NCBI GenBank assembly: GCA_016932965.1
Contig: JAFGBW010000168.1
Location: 1-8,850 of the forward strand
Origin: Candidatus Auribacterota bacterium
Lineage (GTDB): Bacteria; Auribacterota; JAFGBW01
Direction of reading: 5' to 3'
Length of the DNA stretch: 8,850 nt
The position numbers were made by a program, and so were the translations under genes. Of the stretch, positions 1-8,850 are shown one piece after another. Position 1 is the first letter of the stretch; each line of letters begins with the position of its first letter. Under the pieces are notes generated by a model. That model saw only the letters and a list, made by a program, of their open reading frames with translations. It had not been told where the DNA came from and made no database searches.

Positions 1-3000
1 CCGGATGTCAAATGGAACCAGAGTGAAATACTCCGTCTTCCCCCTTCTGAAAATCGTTTTACACTGATATCTGAAGCCAGCGATGACAACGGGATCACGA
101 AAGCCGTGTTGAAATACAGAAGGAAGGGGGACATCCAATGGATGCCTTTGGAAACACGTGAAATCAACAATCTCCGTCAATGCACTCTGAACTGGACCCC
201 TGACTGTTCAAAGCTCACCAGTGATGAGGAATGGGAATTTGAAGCCGTCTTCCATGACGCATTGACTGAAAATTCATCCCCCGTTTTAAGGGTCATTTGG
301 CTGTCTGAGCTGGAAATGCGATTCATGCTCCTGCAGAATCTTTGTTCTTTGATCCGGTCTATCCGAATCTCTGTTACAACCTATCTTCTGGAGGGGAGAG
401 GGACTTATACCAAAATACAATGGATTGATCTTCTCGATGAAATGTCCAGATTTGATTCGTGGAATTCAGAGATAAAAAAGTCAGGATTGTCTCCTCCGCG
501 TTTATTTCAGGCTGCCAAGACTATTTCTTCGATCAGGAATCTCTTTCAGTCCCTGGAGCGTTCTCCTTCTAAAGAGGAGATGAAACGTACGGAGGGTGAA
601 TTGATCCATGCCTGGTCTGATTTTCAGACTTTGGCTTTGAGTCTCCAGAGCCTCATTGTCCAGAAGGAATTTCAGAATCTTAAAAAGAAGCTGCTCCGTT
701 CAAAGGAATCCGGATGTTCGGTATCTGACCTGCTGCAGGCGGCCAAGAAAGGGGTCCATCTTCAGAAGATTCTTTATGAACAGAAAGATTATTTTTTAAA
801 TAACGGTGAAATCCGGATGCAACAACACATGGAGCCCTGTTTTCAGTTTATGGATAAACTTTCATTTTCTTCATTTTTTCCTCTTTTTTTACAGAAAATA
901 AAGGAAGGGAAAAAAACGGAGTCTGTTTCCATGATTGGGCCGTTTCTGGAGAAATGGGAAAAGGAGGGAAAAATTTTAGCCGGTTTTGGGATGAAGAAAA
1001 AATCGGGCAGCCTGGACAGGGATCCGCTCCTTAAAGGGGTCATAAAAAAGCTAAAAACAATCAGGGGCATTTTAAACAGAATGGAATTATCCAGGACTGT
1101 TCCGGATGAAGAATTTAAATGGATGAAGGAAGCCCTGAAGAGTTCCCTTTTTCTCTGCATTGATGAACTGAATGCTATTCAGGTGCAGACAGCATCCACG
1201 GGGCTCCACGGATTGACTTTTTTGAACTCGGCTGGTTATGATCTGGATGAGATGGAATCCTGGTATCTCATCGGAAGCAGTCTCAAGGCTGAGAGTAAAT
1301 TGAAAAAAGCCATCGGGAATATCACAGGCTGTCTGTACGCATTGGAAAAACAAATCGCCGTCTCTTTGAATAGAAATGAGACGGCGAAAGAAAGTAAGGA
1401 TTTCAAACAAGCACAGATTTTCATCCGGATCATCAGACCTATAGGGGATCTTGTGGCCCCATCTCAAGGGACTGTCGAGATAAAGGCTCTGGTGAAAAGT
1501 CCTGAGGGTATCTCACAGGTCTGGATCCATGCTGAACCTGCTGAATCTCATCAAGAAGAGAAGAAAATTTTTTCATCTCTTGTTGAGGACCATCCGGACC
1601 TTCCCGAGAGTGTTTCCGTAACGGCGAGGCTTCCAATTTCGGATTTGAAACTGTCTGTGCAACAAACCATCCGGGTTTATTTAAGCGCTCTTGATTCGAA
1701 CCAGAATTCTGCAAACAGCGATCCTTTTTTTATCCGCGTGAAGAAAATCGGTGATACTATCAATTTGAACCATTACTTCCGTTTTAAGGCCATGGCCTCT
1801 GAAGTGCTTTCCCTTCTTGTTGAGTCGGAAAAGGATGTGTTGCGCCTTCTGGAACAATCAGAATACGCCCTCATCCAGGGGAAGCCTATTCAGAAAGAGT
1901 CCTGGCAGGAAATGATGACCATGCAGGATTTGATTCAGGAAAAATTTCTTGATTTTATTTCGAAAACCGAGACAGAGGCAGAGAAATGCAGCCATTTTCC
2001 TGAGAAGGATTTCATCACATTCCTCAATCTGGGAAGATCATCGTCTGTCAAGGAATTTCATGATGTTAAGCATGCCCTTCTCCAGATTCAAACCGTTTTA
2101 GATGAGGGGGATTTTTCCAAAGAGGCCGCGATTTCGCTTTTTTTTGAGTCCCGAAACCGTCTGCAATCCATAGTGCGAGATTTGGAAGAAATGCGGAAGT
2201 TTTTCGGACTCTCTATGAATGACGCGGTTCAGAACAACAAGACTGCAAAAAAATGGGTGCAAGCGAAAACATTCTGGAAGAAATGGGTTCAACAGACCAA
2301 ACAAGACATGAAAGATGGCCGATTCGGAAAAGAGCTTGTCCCTGAAATGAAAAAACGATCCGGAGATTGTCTTTCGTATTTGAAATCCCTGGAGTTGGAT
2401 ATCACTCCTATTCAGGAAAAAATGACATCCTTTTTAAATCAGCTGGATGAACCGAAAAAAGCGGATCTGCTTGAATATTTCAGTTTTTTTGCGCGGGAGA
2501 TGGAACGAATGATGGGAAGAAATCTGGAAACGGTTTTATCTCAGACTTTCACCGATGCTATTATTGAACTGGCGGAGAACAAGGGGGATGTGCCATCCAG
2601 CCTGCAACGGGCTGAAAATTCCCTTGCCGGGCTTTCCTCGCTGGGGAATCTTTCCTCAGACAAGCAACTGGCTTTGGAAATGCTCAAATTTTCCGGAAAA
2701 CAGGGCCCTATTAAGGATGTCCGAAGCATCACGGACCTCTTGAAACAGTCTTTTCCTGTTTTGGATGAAAGGAATCTCGGCATCTGGGAACGGATTTCTT
2801 TAAATGAGCATAAATTGCAACTTTTGTCTCCAGCTCTTTCTGATCTGGAGAGCGTTCAGGATTTTAATATGAAGGATATCCAGTTTTTAGAAAAAATCAG
2901 TTCACTTATCGACATCTTTTCCAATCAGATCGAAGAATTGAAAAAACAGGCGGAAATGAACAGCCGGCCTGAAGAGAAAGAAAAGCAGCTCGCCCAAATC

Positions 3001-4551
3001 CATATTCTTTTGGAAAAATTGTCCGGCCTGGACCGTAAACGAAAAAATATTGAAGAAATGATCAGGGCGGATGCCTGGCAGTTTGAAGAAGATCATCGAA
3101 TTGAAGTGGAAAAGCAGGTCAAAGACCTCATCCGTTTTGATAAGGAAAAAACAGGCCCGAAAGAATTGATTCCGCGTGTGAAAGAGAAAGCATCGCTCCT
3201 GAAGGAAATCATGAAAACATTTTTGGACAGCCGGAACAGGGATGAGGCCATGAAAACAGCCGAGGGTCCCGTTCAAAGCGCTCTGGAATTATTTTATCTC
3301 TTTCATCAGCTTGATGAGAAGAGCTTTGAGAGAAAGGTCCCTTTTATGACGGATTTTCTCAAAAGCATCCTGTTATACAAACTTTCGGTTGAAAAACAGC
3401 ACTGCAGAGCACAAGATAATTTTTTGAAGCGAATCAGGGAAAACGCACGGATGATAGACCAGGTTTGCTCTGAATTTCTGAATGAACTAGCGAATACGGC
3501 TTACGTGGAGTTCAGACGAAGGGGAGAAAAAGATTTGACGGAAAAAATATCGGCTCTTGGACAGAATATTCATGATGCGAGAAAATTGCTGGCGACCCTT
3601 CAGGCTAAAATGAACAGGACCATTGAGGATGAAAAGGAAATGGACCGTCTTCAGAAGTATCTGGTTGAGGCGAAAAGTATGTTAAATGATCTGGAAAAGG
3701 AACGGGATACTGTCATGAATTTAAAGGGGATCACCATCAGCATTGTTCCGCAGGAACAGGGAAAAACTACGTTATTGACAAAACTGGGTCTCGATGAGCT
3801 GGAAGAAAAGGCCGGTGAGATGGCCCATTTGGTGAATGAAGAAGAGGAAAAATTGGATCAGAAAATCTTAAGAAATCTGAGCGAAGAATTGGAAGAGATG
3901 GAGTCCCAACGAGAGAAAGACGGTGAGGAAAGGGAAGAAAAGCTCCGCCGGATCGCTCAAACAGCTTCCCTGATGGATGTCCCTCTCAAAGGGACGACTG
4001 CTGCCGAGTTAAAGCAGAGCCTTGAGAATGCGGTTATCGACGGGATGAAACAGCAGGAAACCACTTCCGTTGCGCAGGTATTGAAATCATTGAAAGATGC
4101 TGCTGAATTTGTTGAATCCGGGGAGAAAGAAACAGAAGGGGGATATGGAAAATCACAAAAGGAAGCCCGTTTCCGTTATCTTCAGCAGTTTCAGAGTCAA
4201 AAACAACAGTTGGAACGGATCCAGGATTTCATGGGTGAAGCGAACCTTCTTTCTTCCCATTTCAAAAGTAAAAGCGATGAACTGCTTTCCAAATTGGATC
4301 ATCAGATGGAGGAACTCCGGCAGTCCATGACCGGCGAAGAGTGGCTGATCAAGCAGAGGGAAGCCAGGGAAATCATTCAGCAGGTGACCCTCGAATTCAA
4401 TAAGGAAACTCAAATACGTCTGGAGGGCAGGAAGCCGATCACGCTTGATGAAAAAAAGATACAGCGCAGTTTTCCTCTTTTCATTCAGAAGGATATTCCC
4501 GGATATGGTCTATTGATTCGGAAATATCTGGAGGCGGTCGCCACTAAATAA
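1..4551 (+). CDS. Large helical/coiled-coil protein with two Ig-like modules, 5'-partial (DUF4175-like?)
   Basis: The frame is open from base 1 with no in-frame stop upstream of the GTG at 106, and codons 1-35 read as part of a beta-rich domain, so the gene starts left of the window. 1516 residues are visible. Residues about 1-100 look like an Ig-like module (SDDNGITKAVLKYR). Residues about 100-465 are mostly helical. Residues about 471-585 form a second Ig-like module (VEIKALVKSPEGISQVWIHA). From about 590 to the end the protein is highly charged and helical, with the clearest coiled coil at about 1165-1330, rich in E, K, L and Q. The C-terminus (DIPGYGLLIRKYLEAV) resembles the PPxYxxLVxxYF ending common in large DUF4175-like proteins. 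No transmembrane segment is visible; in that family they lie N-terminal, outside this window. If the assignment holds, the visible part would be a periplasmic or surface-exposed domain of an inner-membrane protein. The function is unknown, and family membership is inferred from architecture only. Confidence 0.8.
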   Translation, partial: PDVKWNQSEILRLPPSENRFTLISEASDDNGITKAVLKYRRKGDIQWMPLETREINNLRQCTLNWTPDCSKLTSDEEWEFEAVFHDALTENSSPVLRVIWLSELEMRFMLLQNLCSLIRSIRISVTTYLLEGRGTYTKIQWIDLLDEMSRFDSWNSEIKKSGLSPPRLFQAAKTISSIRNLFQSLERSPSKEEMKRTEGELIHAWSDFQTLALSLQSLIVQKEFQNLKKKLLRSKESGCSVSDLLQAAKKGVHLQKILYEQKDYFLNNGEIRMQQHMEPCFQFMDKLSFSSFFPLFLQKIKEGKKTESVSMIGPFLEKWEKEGKILAGFGMKKKSGSLDRDPLLKGVIKKLKTIRGILNRMELSRTVPDEEFKWMKEALKSSLFLCIDELNAIQVQTASTGLHGLTFLNSAGYDLDEMESWYLIGSSLKAESKLKKAIGNITGCLYALEKQIAVSLNRNETAKESKDFKQAQIFIRIIRPIGDLVAPSQGTVEIKALVKSPEGISQVWIHAEPAESHQEEKKIFSSLVEDHPDLPESVSVTARLPISDLKLSVQQTIRVYLSALDSNQNSANSDPFFIRVKKIGDTINLNHYFRFKAMASEVLSLLVESEKDVLRLLEQSEYALIQGKPIQKESWQEMMTMQDLIQEKFLDFISKTETEAEKCSHFPEKDFITFLNLGRSSSVKEFHDVKHALLQIQTVLDEGDFSKEAAISLFFESRNRLQSIVRDLEEMRKFFGLSMNDAVQNNKTAKKWVQAKTFWKKWVQQTKQDMKDGRFGKELVPEMKKRSGDCLSYLKSLELDITPIQEKMTSFLNQLDEPKKADLLEYFSFFAREMERMMGRNLETVLSQTFTDAIIELAENKGDVPSSLQRAENSLAGLSSLGNLSSDKQLALEMLKFSGKQGPIKDVRSITDLLKQSFPVLDERNLGIWERISLNEHKLQLLSPALSDLESVQDFNMKDIQFLEKISSLIDIFSNQIEELKKQAEMNSRPEEKEKQLAQIHILLEKLSGLDRKRKNIEEMIRADAWQFEEDHRIEVEKQVKDLIRFDKEKTGPKELIPRVKEKASLLKEIMKTFLDSRNRDEAMKTAEGPVQSALELFYLFHQLDEKSFERKVPFMTDFLKSILLYKLSVEKQHCRAQDNFLKRIRENARMIDQVCSEFLNELANTAYVEFRRRGEKDLTEKISALGQNIHDARKLLATLQAKMNRTIEDEKEMDRLQKYLVEAKSMLNDLEKERDTVMNLKGITISIVPQEQGKTTLLTKLGLDELEEKAGEMAHLVNEEEEKLDQKILRNLSEELEEMESQREKDGEEREEKLRRIAQTASLMDVPLKGTTAAELKQSLENAVIDGMKQQETTSVAQVLKSLKDAAEFVESGEKETEGGYGKSQKEARFRYLQQFQSQKQQLERIQDFMGEANLLSSHFKSKSDELLSKLDHQMEELRQSMTGEEWLIKQREAREIIQQVTLEFNKETQIRLEGRKPITLDEKKIQRSFPLFIQKDIPGYGLLIRKYLEAVATK
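1356..1386. repeat. Hairpin inside the coding sequence (9-bp perfect stem)
   Basis: The arms cgccgtctc (1356-1364) and gagacggcg (1378-1386) are perfect reverse complements around a 13-nt loop, and ttt/aaa inside the loop can extend the stem. It lies about 25 codons before the second Ig-like module, near a domain junction. It may be chance or may slow translation locally. No function is claimed. Confidence 0.5.
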
Positions 4552-4585: not shown

Positions 4586-4655
4586 CTTCTTTTTCTTTTT
4601 CAACTTATTCTTATAAACATAATGAGTTCTGCTTTGTAGAAGAAGAAGGGATTTT

Positions 4656-4768
4656 TTAGACAGAAGTAATGGATGACTCCTTTTTATTAGGCTTATAGCG
4701 CCAGTTTAATAGTTAAAATTTAATTTGAACTATCCAAAAAAGTGCAGTCATCCATTACTTCTGTCTAA
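4656..4768. mobile_element. 113-bp MITE-like element with 23-bp perfect inverted repeats
   Basis: The arms at 4656-4678 (starting ttagacagaagtaatgg) and 4746-4768 (ending ccattacttctgtctaa) are perfect reverse complements over 23 bp around a 67-bp AT-rich centre. If the ends proper are gacag...ctgtc, each is bordered by TA (4657-4658 and 4766-4767), the target duplication typical of Tc1/mariner and IS630 elements; no longer direct repeat is visible. The centre has its own imperfect hairpin (4709-4733, 12 bp with one mismatch). There is no coding capacity, so it would be non-autonomous and mobilised by a transposase encoded elsewhere. It lies between a terminator and a promoter. Alternatives are the relic of an internally deleted insertion sequence, or a structured intergenic repeat that never transposed. 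Confidence 0.6.
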
Positions 4769-4796
4769 CAGAGCCCATTTTTTATTTGAATATTTC

Positions 4797-5548: not shown

Positions 5549-5617
5549 ATGGATATTCTGGATTTCCTTTGAGAAAGTACCCGCTTTTGAAAAAATAGTA
5601 ATCTTTTGTACAAGTAT

Positions 5618-7405
5618 ATGAACCAGAAAAATATCAGAAACATCGCAATCATCGCCCACGTTGACCATGGCAAAACGACCCTCGTGGATAAACTCTTCAG
5701 GCAGAGCGGCCTCTTCAGGGAGAATCAGATCGTGGAAGAAAGATTGATGGATTCCATGGACCTGGAACGTGAGCGCGGAATCACCATCGCGTCGAAAAAT
5801 GGATCCTTTCATTATAAAGGGCATCTCATCAATATCGTGGACACTCCCGGACATGCCGATTTCGGCGGACAAGTGGAACGGGTCCTTAAGATGGTGGACG
5901 GAGCCCTCCTCGTAGTCGATGCCCAGGAAGGCCCCATGCCCCAGACCTATTTTGTCCTTAAAAAAGCCCTTTCCTATCATTTGAAGATCATCGTGGTCAT
6001 CAATAAAATCGATAAACCCCACGCCCGGCCCGACTGGACCGTGAACCAGGTGTTCGACCTTTTCGTGAAATTGAAAGCACCCGACCATATCCTGGATTTT
6101 CCCGTCATCTATGCTTCAGCCAAAGACGGTTATGCAAAAATCCATTTAAATGAAAAAAGCAGTTCCATGATACCCTTATTGGATGCGGTTGTTCATCATA
6201 TTCCTCCACCCGCAGGAGACCCGGACGGGCCTTTGCAGATGCAGGTTTCATCCATTGATTATTCGTCTTTCCTTGGAAGACTGGGCATAGGTAAGATCAC
6301 CTCCGGCTCCATGCAGATCAATCAGAATATTGTCCTGGCCAATCAGGAAGGCCGGAACACTTCTGCAAGAATCACAAAAATATACCGGTTTCAGTCGAAC
6401 CAGAAAATTCCCGTGGAGTCAGCCGGCATGGGGGAAATCGTCGCTGTTGCCGGCGTCGAGGATGTCATGATCGGTGACACCTATACTGATCCTATTGATC
6501 CTCTCCCTTGTCCCATGCTGAAAATCGATCCTCCAACTATTTCCATGAATTTTATTCCCAATGATTCCCCTTTTTCCGGCAAAGAAGGCACCTATTGCAC
6601 CTCACGCCATTTATCCGGACGCCTTAATAAAGAAACCCTTTCTGACGTGGCTCTGGTCGTTGAAGAACTGGACGGTACACCCGGGTTCAAAGTGTCCGGC
6701 AGAGGAGAACTCCATCTCTCCATCCTCATAGAAAAAATGAGGCGCGAAGGTTATGAGTTCCAGGTCACCTGTCCGCAGGTGATCATGGAAACAGACGGCG
6801 ATCAGGTTTTGGAACCCTTCGAAGAATTGATCATCGACGTGGCTGAAGAATATCTCGGCCCGGTCATGGAAAAACTCGGCAGCCGTAAGGCCCAGATGCT
6901 TGAAATGCACGTGGATAACGGGATGGTCCGCCTCAGATACAATATCCCGACCCGCGGACTCTTAGGTTTCCGCTCAGGATTCATGACCGATACCAAAGGA
7001 ATGGGTGTCATGAATTATGTGTTTTCCGGATTCGCTCGTCACGCAGGCGATATCCCCAGAAACCGTAAAAACGGCGCCATGGTCTGTAATTGCGTCTGCG
7101 AAACCGTGGCCTATGCGCTCTTTAACCTCCAGGAACGCGGCACGTTGTTCTATGGGCCCAATGCCCAATGCTATACAGGCCAGATCGTTGGCGAACACTG
7201 CCGCGAAAGAGACCTCACCGTCAACCCCGCCAAAGGGAAAAAACTCACCAACGTCCGCTCCGCCGGAAGTGATGAAAATGTCATCCTCACCCCGCCCACC
7301 GTCCTCAGCCTCGAGGAATCCATCGCGTACATCAACGACGATGAGCTCGTCGAAATCACCCCCAAAAATATCAGATTGCGAAAAAGAAAATTTGTCCCCA
7401 GATAA
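5618..7405 (+). CDS. typA: GTP-binding ribosome-associated protein TypA/BipA
   Basis: Translational GTPase of the EF-G-like family. It binds 70S ribosomes, helps 50S assembly and acts in stress and low-temperature responses (family knowledge). From ATG 5618 the protein has 595 residues, normal for the family. G1 is AHVDHGKTT (13-21), G2 lies in RGITI, G3 is DTPGHADF, G4 is NKID, and an ASAKDG segment marks G5. Domain II, the EF-G-like domains III and V, and the BipA-specific C-terminal domain follow, with [22 protein letters not shown] and the ending [18 protein letters not shown]. An in-frame TTG at 5606 would add MYKY, but the ATG gives the usual start just before [13 protein letters not shown]. 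No Shine-Dalgarno motif precedes either start, and an in-frame TGA at 5588 bars longer forms. Oddity: a CNCVCE cluster at 490-495, where relatives usually have a Ser/Met/Thr/Gly segment, plus two more cysteines further on. Base composition is GC-richer than its neighbours. Confidence 0.97.
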
Positions 7406-7406
7406 A

Positions 7407-7489
7407 TTTTTTTTTCAAAGGGAAAGAAAATGCGGGAAAATCTTTTTTAAAGAAAAAAGATTTTCCCGCACCCTTTTCAAAAAATTTTA
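7407..7489 (+). repeat. Type A palindromic element, copy 1 (downstream of typA)
   Basis: The core at 7431-7470 is a perfect 18-bp stem (starting tgcgggaaaatc) around the loop aaag. Outside it, aaaggg (7419-7424, approximate) can pair with ccctttt (7471-7477) across an 8-nt one-sided bulge, and flanking T and A runs extend this imperfectly. The linker 7475-7489 (tttcaaaaaatttta) is identical to the linker of copy 2. The element starts directly after the typA stop codon with a nine-T run. There is no clean U-tract after the core stem, so it is not a standard intrinsic terminator, though it could stop or process the typA transcript. Confidence 0.8.
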
Positions 7490-7493
7490 TTGG

Positions 7494-7558
7494 CGAATAC
7501 AAAGGACGACGGCTGGAAAAAAGATTCACTCTTTTCCAGCCGTCGTCCTTTGTATTCG
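7494..7558. repeat. Type B hairpin, copy 1: 27-bp perfect inverted repeat
   Basis: The arms 7494-7520 (starting cgaatacaaaggacgacgg) and 7532-7558 are exact reverse complements around an 11-nt loop. It begins 23 nt after the type A core and lies between the convergent typA and DRHyd genes, 25 nt from the stop of the latter. No T-run of terminator type follows on either strand. Its stem is unrelated in sequence to copy 2, although length and placement agree. Confidence 0.9.
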
Positions 7559-7583
7559 GAATAAGTTATCAATATGAAGCTTT

Positions 7584-8306
7584 TTAAGTTAATGGATTTT
7601 CTTCAAAATTCAACGGGCCTAAAGTCGCCTCGATCCGGTTTTGTAATCGCTGTCTTAAATCTTCCGGATGCTCTTCATTCCAAAGGATGAAATTGTATTG
7701 TCGGTTATCGAAATGGATGTTATTGATCTCAGTTTCTTTGCATAGCCAGATAACAGGTAATCCCAATCCCAAAGCATAACCTGCTTCAAAATAGACCCCG
7801 CCTCTTTGTCCTGTAAAATCATATACCGCAAAACGGCTCTTTCGGATCATAGCGATAATTTCATCGTCAATTTTATTGTTGTGCTCAAGTCTGTCTATGC
7901 GTTTAGGTTCATATCCTGAAGCATGAATAGCTTTTTCGATTGATTGATGTAGGGAATTCATTTTCGGATCAAACCACATCGCTACAAAGCCAAGATGACT
8001 ATCAGGATTGATTTGTTGTAAACTATCAAGATAAGCCCAGCCTGTAGGACTGATTTTAACACTATGGTTCATTCCATCTGTGTTGAGGATGAATTGTTTA
8101 GTAGTATTTAAATAACCATGGAAAAGATAATCCAATTCCTGTTTATCGATTGCCCAGCATATTCCGCAATAAGGAAGATAATCATTGATATTTTTTATTT
8201 GGAATATAGAAGTGAATATTTTACCCGGTGTTGAGTTTTTTTCGGATAAATAGAACAATAATTTCTCAGCTTTTTCTCCTACAGCGGGAGGTTTGATGTT
8301 TTTCAA
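7584..8306 (-). CDS. Winged-helix plus nucleoside 2-deoxyribosyltransferase-like (DRHyd) protein
   Basis: 240 residues if it starts at the TTG at 8306. Residues 1-100 are a small helical region with a winged-helix-like end (VKISPTGWAYLDSL, 83-96). Residues 105-230 match the nucleoside deoxyribosyltransferase/DRHyd Rossmann-like fold: GFVAMWFD (106-113), KIDDEIIAMIRKSRF (145-159), YDFTGQRGGVYFEAGYALG (162-180) and HFDNRQYNFILW (198-209). The likely catalytic acid is E174, with D163 in the binding site, by analogy with the family. Members cleave or transfer at N-glycosidic bonds of nucleosides or nucleotides, and related domains serve as effectors in anti-phage and stress systems; the substrate here is unknown. 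It follows valS in the same direction but is separated from it by two strong hairpins, and it converges on typA. It is AT-rich beside typA, which hints at transfer. No good ribosome-binding site or promoter was found. The start is doubtful; see the next entry. Confidence 0.8.
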   Translation of the reverse strand: MKNIKPPAVGEKAEKLLFYLSEKNSTPGKIFTSIFQIKNINDYLPYCGICWAIDKQELDYLFHGYLNTTKQFILNTDGMNHSVKISPTGWAYLDSLQQINPDSHLGFVAMWFDPKMNSLHQSIEKAIHASGYEPKRIDRLEHNNKIDDEIIAMIRKSRFAVYDFTGQRGGVYFEAGYALGLGLPVIWLCKETEINNIHFDNRQYNFILWNEEHPEDLRQRLQNRIEATLGPLNFEENPLT

Positions 8307-8354
8307 TTTTTCGAATTCATATTCAGTTATGGTGGGATTATCCTGTTCCCTGAT
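8307..8354 (-). other. In-frame upstream extension of the DRHyd gene lacking a standard start
   Basis: The frame stays open for 16 codons upstream of TTG 8306 until a TAG at 8355-8357, without ATG, GTG or TTG. Translated, it continues as ordinary protein-like sequence (TITEYEFEKLKNIKPP). An ATA codon at 8328-8330 is preceded by AGGA (8341-8344) at 10 nt, whereas TTG 8306 has no Shine-Dalgarno sequence. The true start may be this ATA, or an ATG here may have mutated to ATA. Confidence 0.45.
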
Positions 8355-8394
8355 CTAACTGGAGATGTGTTTTTTTAGATTATTAAATTTGTCT

Positions 8395-8449
8395 GCACGC
8401 GATACGGAAAATACACAAGCATTGCTTGTGTATTTTCCGTATCGCGTGC
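8395..8449. repeat. Type B hairpin, copy 2: 27-bp perfect inverted repeat
   Basis: The arms 8395-8421 (starting gcacgcgatacggaaaatac) and 8423-8449 are exact reverse complements around a single central base. A real hairpin would open a few central pairs (aag/ctt closing). It is GC-rich at the base and AT-rich near the tip, and no terminator-like T-run follows on the minus strand. It lies between the end of valS and the start of the DRHyd gene. Confidence 0.9.
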
Positions 8450-8454
8450 GCCTT

Positions 8455-8517
8455 TAAAATTTTTTGAAAGGTGCAGGAAAACTTTTTTATAAAAAAGTTT
8501 TCCTGCATTTTCCAAAA
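8455..8517 (-). repeat. Type A palindromic element, copy 2 (downstream of valS)
   Basis: The core 8472-8507 is a perfect 36-bp palindrome (starting tgcaggaaaactttttta). Its outer part differs from copy 1 by one base in each arm (tgcagg/cctgca against tgcggg/cccgca), a paired change that keeps the stem. The 15-nt linker at 8455-8469 is the exact reverse complement of 7475-7489. On the minus strand the order is valS stop, type A, linker, type B, as after typA. Confidence 0.8.
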
Positions 8518-8850
8518 TCATTTGAAAAATTGAAAAACAGTTTTCAATTTTTGCAATTCTTCCTGGGCCTGGGTGTGTTTGGATTTTTCATTATTGACGG
8601 CTTCGGGGGAGGCTTTGGAGAGGAAGCCGGGGTTGGAGAGTTTCCGGGAGAGGGTGGTGATGAAGGAGGATAGGTTCTCGATTTTGGCGGAGAGTTTGGT
8701 TCTTTCGGAATCGAAGTCGATGAGGGATTTATCGAGTTCCATGGAAACGGTTGCGATGGGTGTGACTTCGGAGGGCATGGGGGACTGGGGAGGATTTTCC
8801 GAGATTTCGATTCTGGAGGCCTTGAGCATTTTGAGGAGAAGGGGGTGTTC
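8518..8850 (-). CDS. valS: Valyl-tRNA synthetase, C-terminal end (3' part only)
   Basis: The frame is open to the right edge (the first codon read is 8848-8850), so only the last 110 residues plus TGA (8518-8520) are seen. The sequence matches the ValRS C-terminal tail: a short strand region, then IDFDSERTKLSAKIENL, then NPGFLSKASPEAVNNEKSK, and a closing helix. This is the antiparallel coiled-coil arm that contacts the tRNA elbow in ValRS; the catalytic core lies outside the window. The internal ATG at 8829 is not a real start. The extreme C-terminus (TVFQFFK) is AT-rich and abuts the type A element, which may overlap the last codons. Confidence 0.93.
   Translation of the reverse strand, partial: EHPLLLKMLKASRIEISENPPQSPMPSEVTPIATVSMELDKSLIDFDSERTKLSAKIENLSSFITTLSRKLSNPGFLSKASPEAVNNEKSKHTQAQEELQKLKTVFQFFK
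8525..8552. repeat. 12-bp perfect hairpin in the last codons of valS
   Basis: aaaaattgaaaa (8525-8536) and ttttcaattttt (8541-8552) are exact reverse complements around a 4-nt loop. It lies just inside the valS stop codon and adds to the stack of hairpins at this gene end. Its high A/T content makes a weak stem, and it may simply reflect local composition. Confidence 0.55.

Follow-up and report, generated by a model that had tools for sequence, protein, structure and literature searches.

The genome examined here carries a dispersed family of composite double hairpins, in which a long palindrome (A), an A/T-rich linker and a second, unlike palindrome (B) follow one another in fixed order, mostly just past stop codons. 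We came upon the family through two copies in the window, the whole 8,850-nt stretch of DNA that was analysed, which corresponds to contig C244 of a 3.14-Mb genome (300 contigs, 92.6% complete). In our estimate, the probability is roughly 0.6 that the A-B element is a REP/BIME-like dispersed 3'-end double hairpin, which would act as a 3' block in transcripts and whose spread and correction would take place in the DNA itself. Both stems would fold in the transcript right after the stop codon, where they would hinder read-through by RNA polymerase and/or exonucleases working 3' to 5', in the manner of REPs and terminator hairpins. The copies would spread and homogenise as DNA, by transposition or gene conversion, and hairpin-templated correction would carry each change across to the opposite arm.

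Two copies in the window and the gene between them

Both loci in the window share one order, A palindrome, linker and B palindrome, located 3' of typA on the forward strand and of valS on the reverse strand (Table 1). The 15-mer TTTCAAAAAATTTTA is identical in the two linkers, and a GGCG straddles the boundary between linker and B. The coordinates thus bear out the arrangement claimed in a preliminary description of this DNA, namely A, a linker with an identical 15-mer, GGCG and a 27-bp B hairpin, present twice as mirror images. The A sequences and linkers of the two copies are alike, and their B sequences are mutually unrelated. A genome search with the B arm of copy 1, allowing up to 3 mismatches, returned only the arm itself, ruling out its derivation from elsewhere in the genome. 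At copy 1, RNA folding extends the A stem by pairing of the upstream AAAGGG with the downstream CCCTTT, leaving a one-sided 8-nt bulge; the AAAAGGG flank and the bulge recur in other copies of the same subfamily (subfamily 1).

Table 1. Coordinates of the two A-B copies, their neighbouring genes and the sites of repeat C (window positions, unless a locus is given)
Feature	Position	Strand	Details
typA/bipA	5606-7405	+	TIGR01394, E 9e-254; stop at 7405; upstream of copy 1
5' flank of A, copy 1	7407-7430	+	T-run, then CAAAGGG
A hairpin, copy 1	7431-7470	+	perfect 18-bp arms; TGCGGGAAAATCTTTTTT-AAAG-AAAAAAGATTTTCCCGCA; typA stop 26 nt before
A-B linker, copy 1	7471-7493	+	CCCTTTTCAAAAAATTTTATTGG, 23 nt
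B hairpin, copy 1	7494-7558	+	27 perfect pairs; 30-nt arms at 97%
Bracketed gene, 240 aa	7584-8306	-	PF05014, E 3e-5 (below cut-off); PADLOC TIR effector, E 4e-11
B hairpin, copy 2	8395-8449	-	27 perfect bp, loop 1 nt
A-B linker, copy 2	8450-8471	-	CCTTTCAAAAAATTTTAAAGGC, 22 nt
A hairpin, copy 2	8472-8507	-	TGCAGGAAAACTTTTTTATAAAAAAGTTTTCCTGCA; valS stop 11 nt before
valS 3' end (tRNA-binding arm)	8518-8850	-	PF10458, E 2e-13; stop at 8518; upstream of copy 2
Repeat C sites	L052:1402-1474; L045:1550-1620; L112:112-184; L137:9218-9289, 13763-13833; also L185, L182, L188		

The gene between the two copies encodes a protein whose C-terminal half is related to nucleoside 2-deoxyribosyltransferase and TIR-like effector domains. 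The preliminary description proposed that the A-B pair might delimit a small defence-gene cassette, here a mobile one with this DRHyd gene inside, and the mirror-image copies around a gene with a C-terminal domain matching the PADLOC TIR-effector profile are in line with that proposal. However, about 58 other copies adjoin ordinary genes, and closely spaced copies elsewhere lie around or between ordinary genes, among them dapA, dapB and a XerD-like gene (names assigned by sequence recognition, without a profile search). Moreover, the two B hairpins are wholly different in sequence, whereas a single transposon would have matching ends, and the position of each A is set relative to its own upstream gene. 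We thus reject the cassette as highly improbable. The bracket is a coincidence of neighbouring genes with one copy each, and the mirror image arises because typA and valS are convergent and a separate 3' element follows each of them.

In more distant relatives valS does not adjoin typA, and a conserved typA-valS neighbourhood was rejected. TypA (window 5606-7405 and locus L191) shares 67% identity with its counterpart in G013, from another family of the phylum, but only about 52% with that of G001, from the same order, a pattern that, as far as sequence identity can tell, may reflect gene transfer. The window also contains a further long inverted repeat, not of the A-B type, at 4643-4781 (two 46-nt arms, 80% alike, separated by 47 nt; core AGACAGAAGTAATGGATGACT), located between a large ORF and a DUF3060 gene. 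The ORF (1-4551, forward strand) encodes at least 1516 aa, is apparently coiled-coil-rich and had no match in Pfam, NCBIfam or PADLOC.

A repeat family anchored to gene ends

Eight canonical copies served to build a covariance model, and a search with it recovered about 60 distinct A-B copies in the 3.1-Mb MAG (62 in one tally). The two window copies are therefore not the chance pair of palindromes that the preliminary description had allowed for should no further copies be found. The copies fall into several sequence subfamilies with a single architecture. Their A sequences begin with TGCGGGAAAAnCTTTT, TGCGGAAAAACCTTTATGAATAAAGG, GAAGGnnnACTTTTCTTTT, GAAGGGAACCCATTCTTTG, GCGGGGGAAACCTTTTTT or TGCAGGGAAACTTTTTG, and the linker and B are specific to each subfamily, the most frequent B being CGCTTTCATGGGAACAnnnTGTTCCCATGAAAGCG. 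Although the sequences differ, the A-B gap is 20-27 nt in all subfamilies, as judged from copies with both stems intact, and intact stems mostly measure 15-31 bp. By comparison, Markov shuffling of sequence from the same genome gave 140 kb that contained 0-1 hairpins with arms of at least 13 and none with arms of at least 15; this control, together with the approximately 60 composite copies, rules out chance palindromes. Long hairpins of other kinds were rare in 150 kb of sampled genomic sequence, and about 15 B arms had no second copy in the 560 kb of this genome's sequence searched.

A full inverted A-B-A' arrangement was scored in 7 of 55 copies, in addition to loci L073 and L131, and A-L-B-L'-A' was accordingly rejected as the general form. 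At L131:1316-1475 and L073:1437-1596, one B is common to two opposed A hairpins, and in such arrangements the two A hairpins sometimes belong to different subfamilies.

Position relative to genes was assessed from simple ORF calls, so that single cases may be wrong, and with subfamily 4 left out. Among 41 copies, 39 have their A end closer than their B end to the neighbouring gene (p=8e-10), and at 32 of 43 copies the gene on the A side is oriented toward the element (p=0.002). A starts at a median of 21 nt past the stop codon, and within 40 nt in 30 of the 32 copies with a gene reading toward them. Thus, the suggestion of a new class of gene-3'-end element has largely held. The arrangements comprise 18 codirectional genes in the A-to-B sense, 8 codirectional in the B-to-A sense, 13 convergent and 2 divergent; about a quarter of the copies are placed in reverse, adjoining a start codon. 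The 9 copies of subfamily 4 lie 40-245 nt from genes and follow no orientation rule; they have conserved flanks beyond A and B, and no shared target duplication was seen around them. REPs located no more than about 15 nt from a stop codon have been reported to affect translation (PMC12306157), and some A hairpins lie as near.

Terminators, mobile elements and the distribution of A-B

The A-B element was absent from 38 genomes of the same phylum and order, including two of the same order, and was not found behind typA of relatives. The A part, down to an exact 24-mer that extends out of A into the linker, occurs in one Lentisphaerae MAG and in three MAGs of Clostridia, of which two come from goat gut samples; there too it lies past stop codons. 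The Lentisphaerae MAG has the A-linker-B architecture at two loci and five matches in all, and the three Clostridia MAGs (G040-G042) have 30, 52 and 145 A matches, both strands counted, mostly without B. Where a gene reads toward a clostridial A hairpin, the hairpin lies 9-22 nt past the stop codon in 7 of 8 cases. A strict A pattern was present in G042 and in none of 147 other genomes of its class. Judging from sequence comparison, this distribution would fit horizontal spread; mis-binned contigs are an alternative explanation, which is hardest to exclude for the Lentisphaerae MAG. The phages, plasmids and viral contigs searched contained no match to the element, and an origin from any of these was rejected on that basis.

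At the 3' end of ftsH, classical terminators made of a hairpin and a T-run are found in many family relatives of G042, and G042 has two A hairpins there, indicating that A stands in the terminator's place. A-like hairpins without a U-tract were also observed behind ftsH in family relatives G262 and perhaps G237 (L232:3099-3339 and L217), and these are possible intermediates between terminator and A element.

This replacement, the location past stop codons and the convergent genes at 13 of 41 copies could mean that A-B is simply the organism's bidirectional intrinsic terminator, homogenised in sequence and not mobile at all. Bidirectional intrinsic terminators with a 5' A-tract have been described in low-GC Firmicutes (PMC1590033), offering a parallel, and A-B resembles intrinsic terminators in having a hairpin right after the stop codon and an upstream AAAAGGG complementary to a downstream CCCTTTT. 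However, a proper U-tract is missing: the sequence 3' of A is CCCUUUUC or CCCTTTTC, that 3' of B is GAA or AAA, and on the A-to-B strand neither A nor B is followed by a run of at least five T. (In the scan of the window, the listed A and B1 matches were antisense to the upstream gene.) A-B further differs from intrinsic terminators by the second long hairpin 20-27 nt downstream, by the conserved stem and linker sequence, of which A and the linker would not need to be conserved for termination alone, and by its modest number of about 60 copies, most gene ends in 150 kb of the genome lacking the element. In six copies, for example between dapA and dapB, the next codirectional ORF begins 14-56 nt past B, which leaves scant room for a promoter and argues against full termination at those copies. 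On balance, we regard a terminator of this kind as rather improbable.

With REP, BIME and REPIN sequences, A-B shares short dispersed palindromes located mostly 3' of genes, tens of copies, paired hairpins and a conserved spacer, and, as in palindromic dispersed repeats generally, the many extragenic palindromes are biased to gene 3' ends. REPs with a GTAG tag, which are sometimes inserted within other palindromes (PMC3733652), have stems of 5-13 bp (Table 1 of PMC3733652), whereas those of A-B measure 15-31 bp. In addition, A-B lacks the tag, being preceded by ATTGG, AAATG or similar before B and by purine-rich sequence before A, and consists of two unlike hairpins in fixed order. The Y1 (HUH) transposase (PF01797) had no match in this 92.6% complete genome, while control genomes were positive. 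With the transposase and the tag absent and the stems too long, a RAYT/REP system was rejected. CGTC-tagged repeats, including RPE-4/RPE-6 and dRS3, are likewise palindromic and without a known transposase (PMC3733652), but A-B lacks the CGTC tag, has stems longer than their 8-9 bp and keeps a fixed A-B order.

A selfish, MITE-like miniature element, moved by a transposase with a preference for terminator hairpins or the ends of genes and affecting the host only incidentally, is a possible but unlikely alternative. Like MITEs, A-B is short, non-coding, dispersed inverted-repeat DNA, and A-B-A' resembles a unit with inverted ends; the few full copies of that form, the very patchy distribution with an exact 24-mer common to different phyla and the location of subfamily 4 away from genes all point in this direction. 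So does a third repeat, C (72 nt, 9 matches, GCTGCGGCCATCCTGGCC...CTTCGCTT), which is inserted directly behind CTTTT in A loops or A-B linkers, with no visible target duplication, and indicates that small elements move in this genome and use hairpins as targets. In contrast, most A-B copies lack the second end, and around most of them no constant target duplication or terminal inverted repeat was seen; no parent transposon or autonomous partner was found, the Y1 transposase is absent, the collections of phages, plasmids and viral contigs searched did not contain the element, and the strong anchoring to stop codons would demand a special target rule. Transposition of the A-B copies, as entertained in the 3'-block reading, is something we only infer, no empty site having been seen. 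A copy of repeat C on contig C150 is itself split by about 280 bp, and a 33-nt part of the repeat has an 88% match in a genome of another phylum (L181).

Location past stop codons and a conserved structure with variable sequence are also features of integron attC sites, which recombine as folded single strands behind gene 3' ends. However, the A-B arms are perfectly paired, no attC boxes or extrahelical bases were recognised by eye in the aligned copies, and single copies are scattered at core genes without cassette arrays, making attC-like recombination sites extremely unlikely. In Rfam, all matches of the window scored below the gathering score and nine element-bearing loci had none. Literature searches covering open-licence papers found no description of the element, and its literal sequence was not found in papers.

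Arm changes and the maintenance of palindromy

Of the 2087 stem pairs counted over the whole family, 2039 are Watson-Crick, the remainder comprising 10 G.T, 20 A.C and 18 other pairs. Within subfamilies, 148 double changes preserve Watson-Crick pairing, compared with 4 G.T, 11 A.C and 10 other mismatches, and a structure count on the eight aligned copies gives a matching picture. Thus, the sequence turns over while the palindromes stay near-perfect. An RNA acting on the A-to-B strand would tolerate G.U, visible as G.T, more readily than A.C; the counts do not show this and argue against selection on a one-strand RNA alone. The two strands may be of equal importance, or the palindrome may be maintained in the DNA itself. 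We infer the latter, which could involve, for instance, hairpin-templated correction, in which one arm would be copied from the other.

In favour of our preferred reading are the roughly 60 copies, the gene-proximal A, usually just past a stop codon, the A-B gap kept across subfamilies, the near-perfect pairing of the arms, the clostridial A hairpins past stop codons, the occurrence of only 2 divergent sites and the terminator position at ftsH. Against it are the missing U-run behind A and B, the reversed quarter of the copies, the location of subfamily 4 and the lack of enrichment in G.U. A bolder version, which we consider doubtful, would see in A-B a double-hairpin DNA element that spreads horizontally, corrects itself and takes over gene 3' ends, in places replacing terminators, in unrelated animal-associated bacteria, and that is moved by an enzyme other than a known REP transposase.

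Short palindromic repeats 3' of genes are already known. None of the REP classes, Rfam families and terminator descriptions compared covers two unlike hairpins in fixed order that occur partly across phyla and whose palindromes are kept perfect despite sequence turnover. If the palindromes are indeed maintained at the DNA level, A-B would be a clear-cut example from nature of arm correction templated by a hairpin, and would provide a handle on how dispersed elements replace gene ends.
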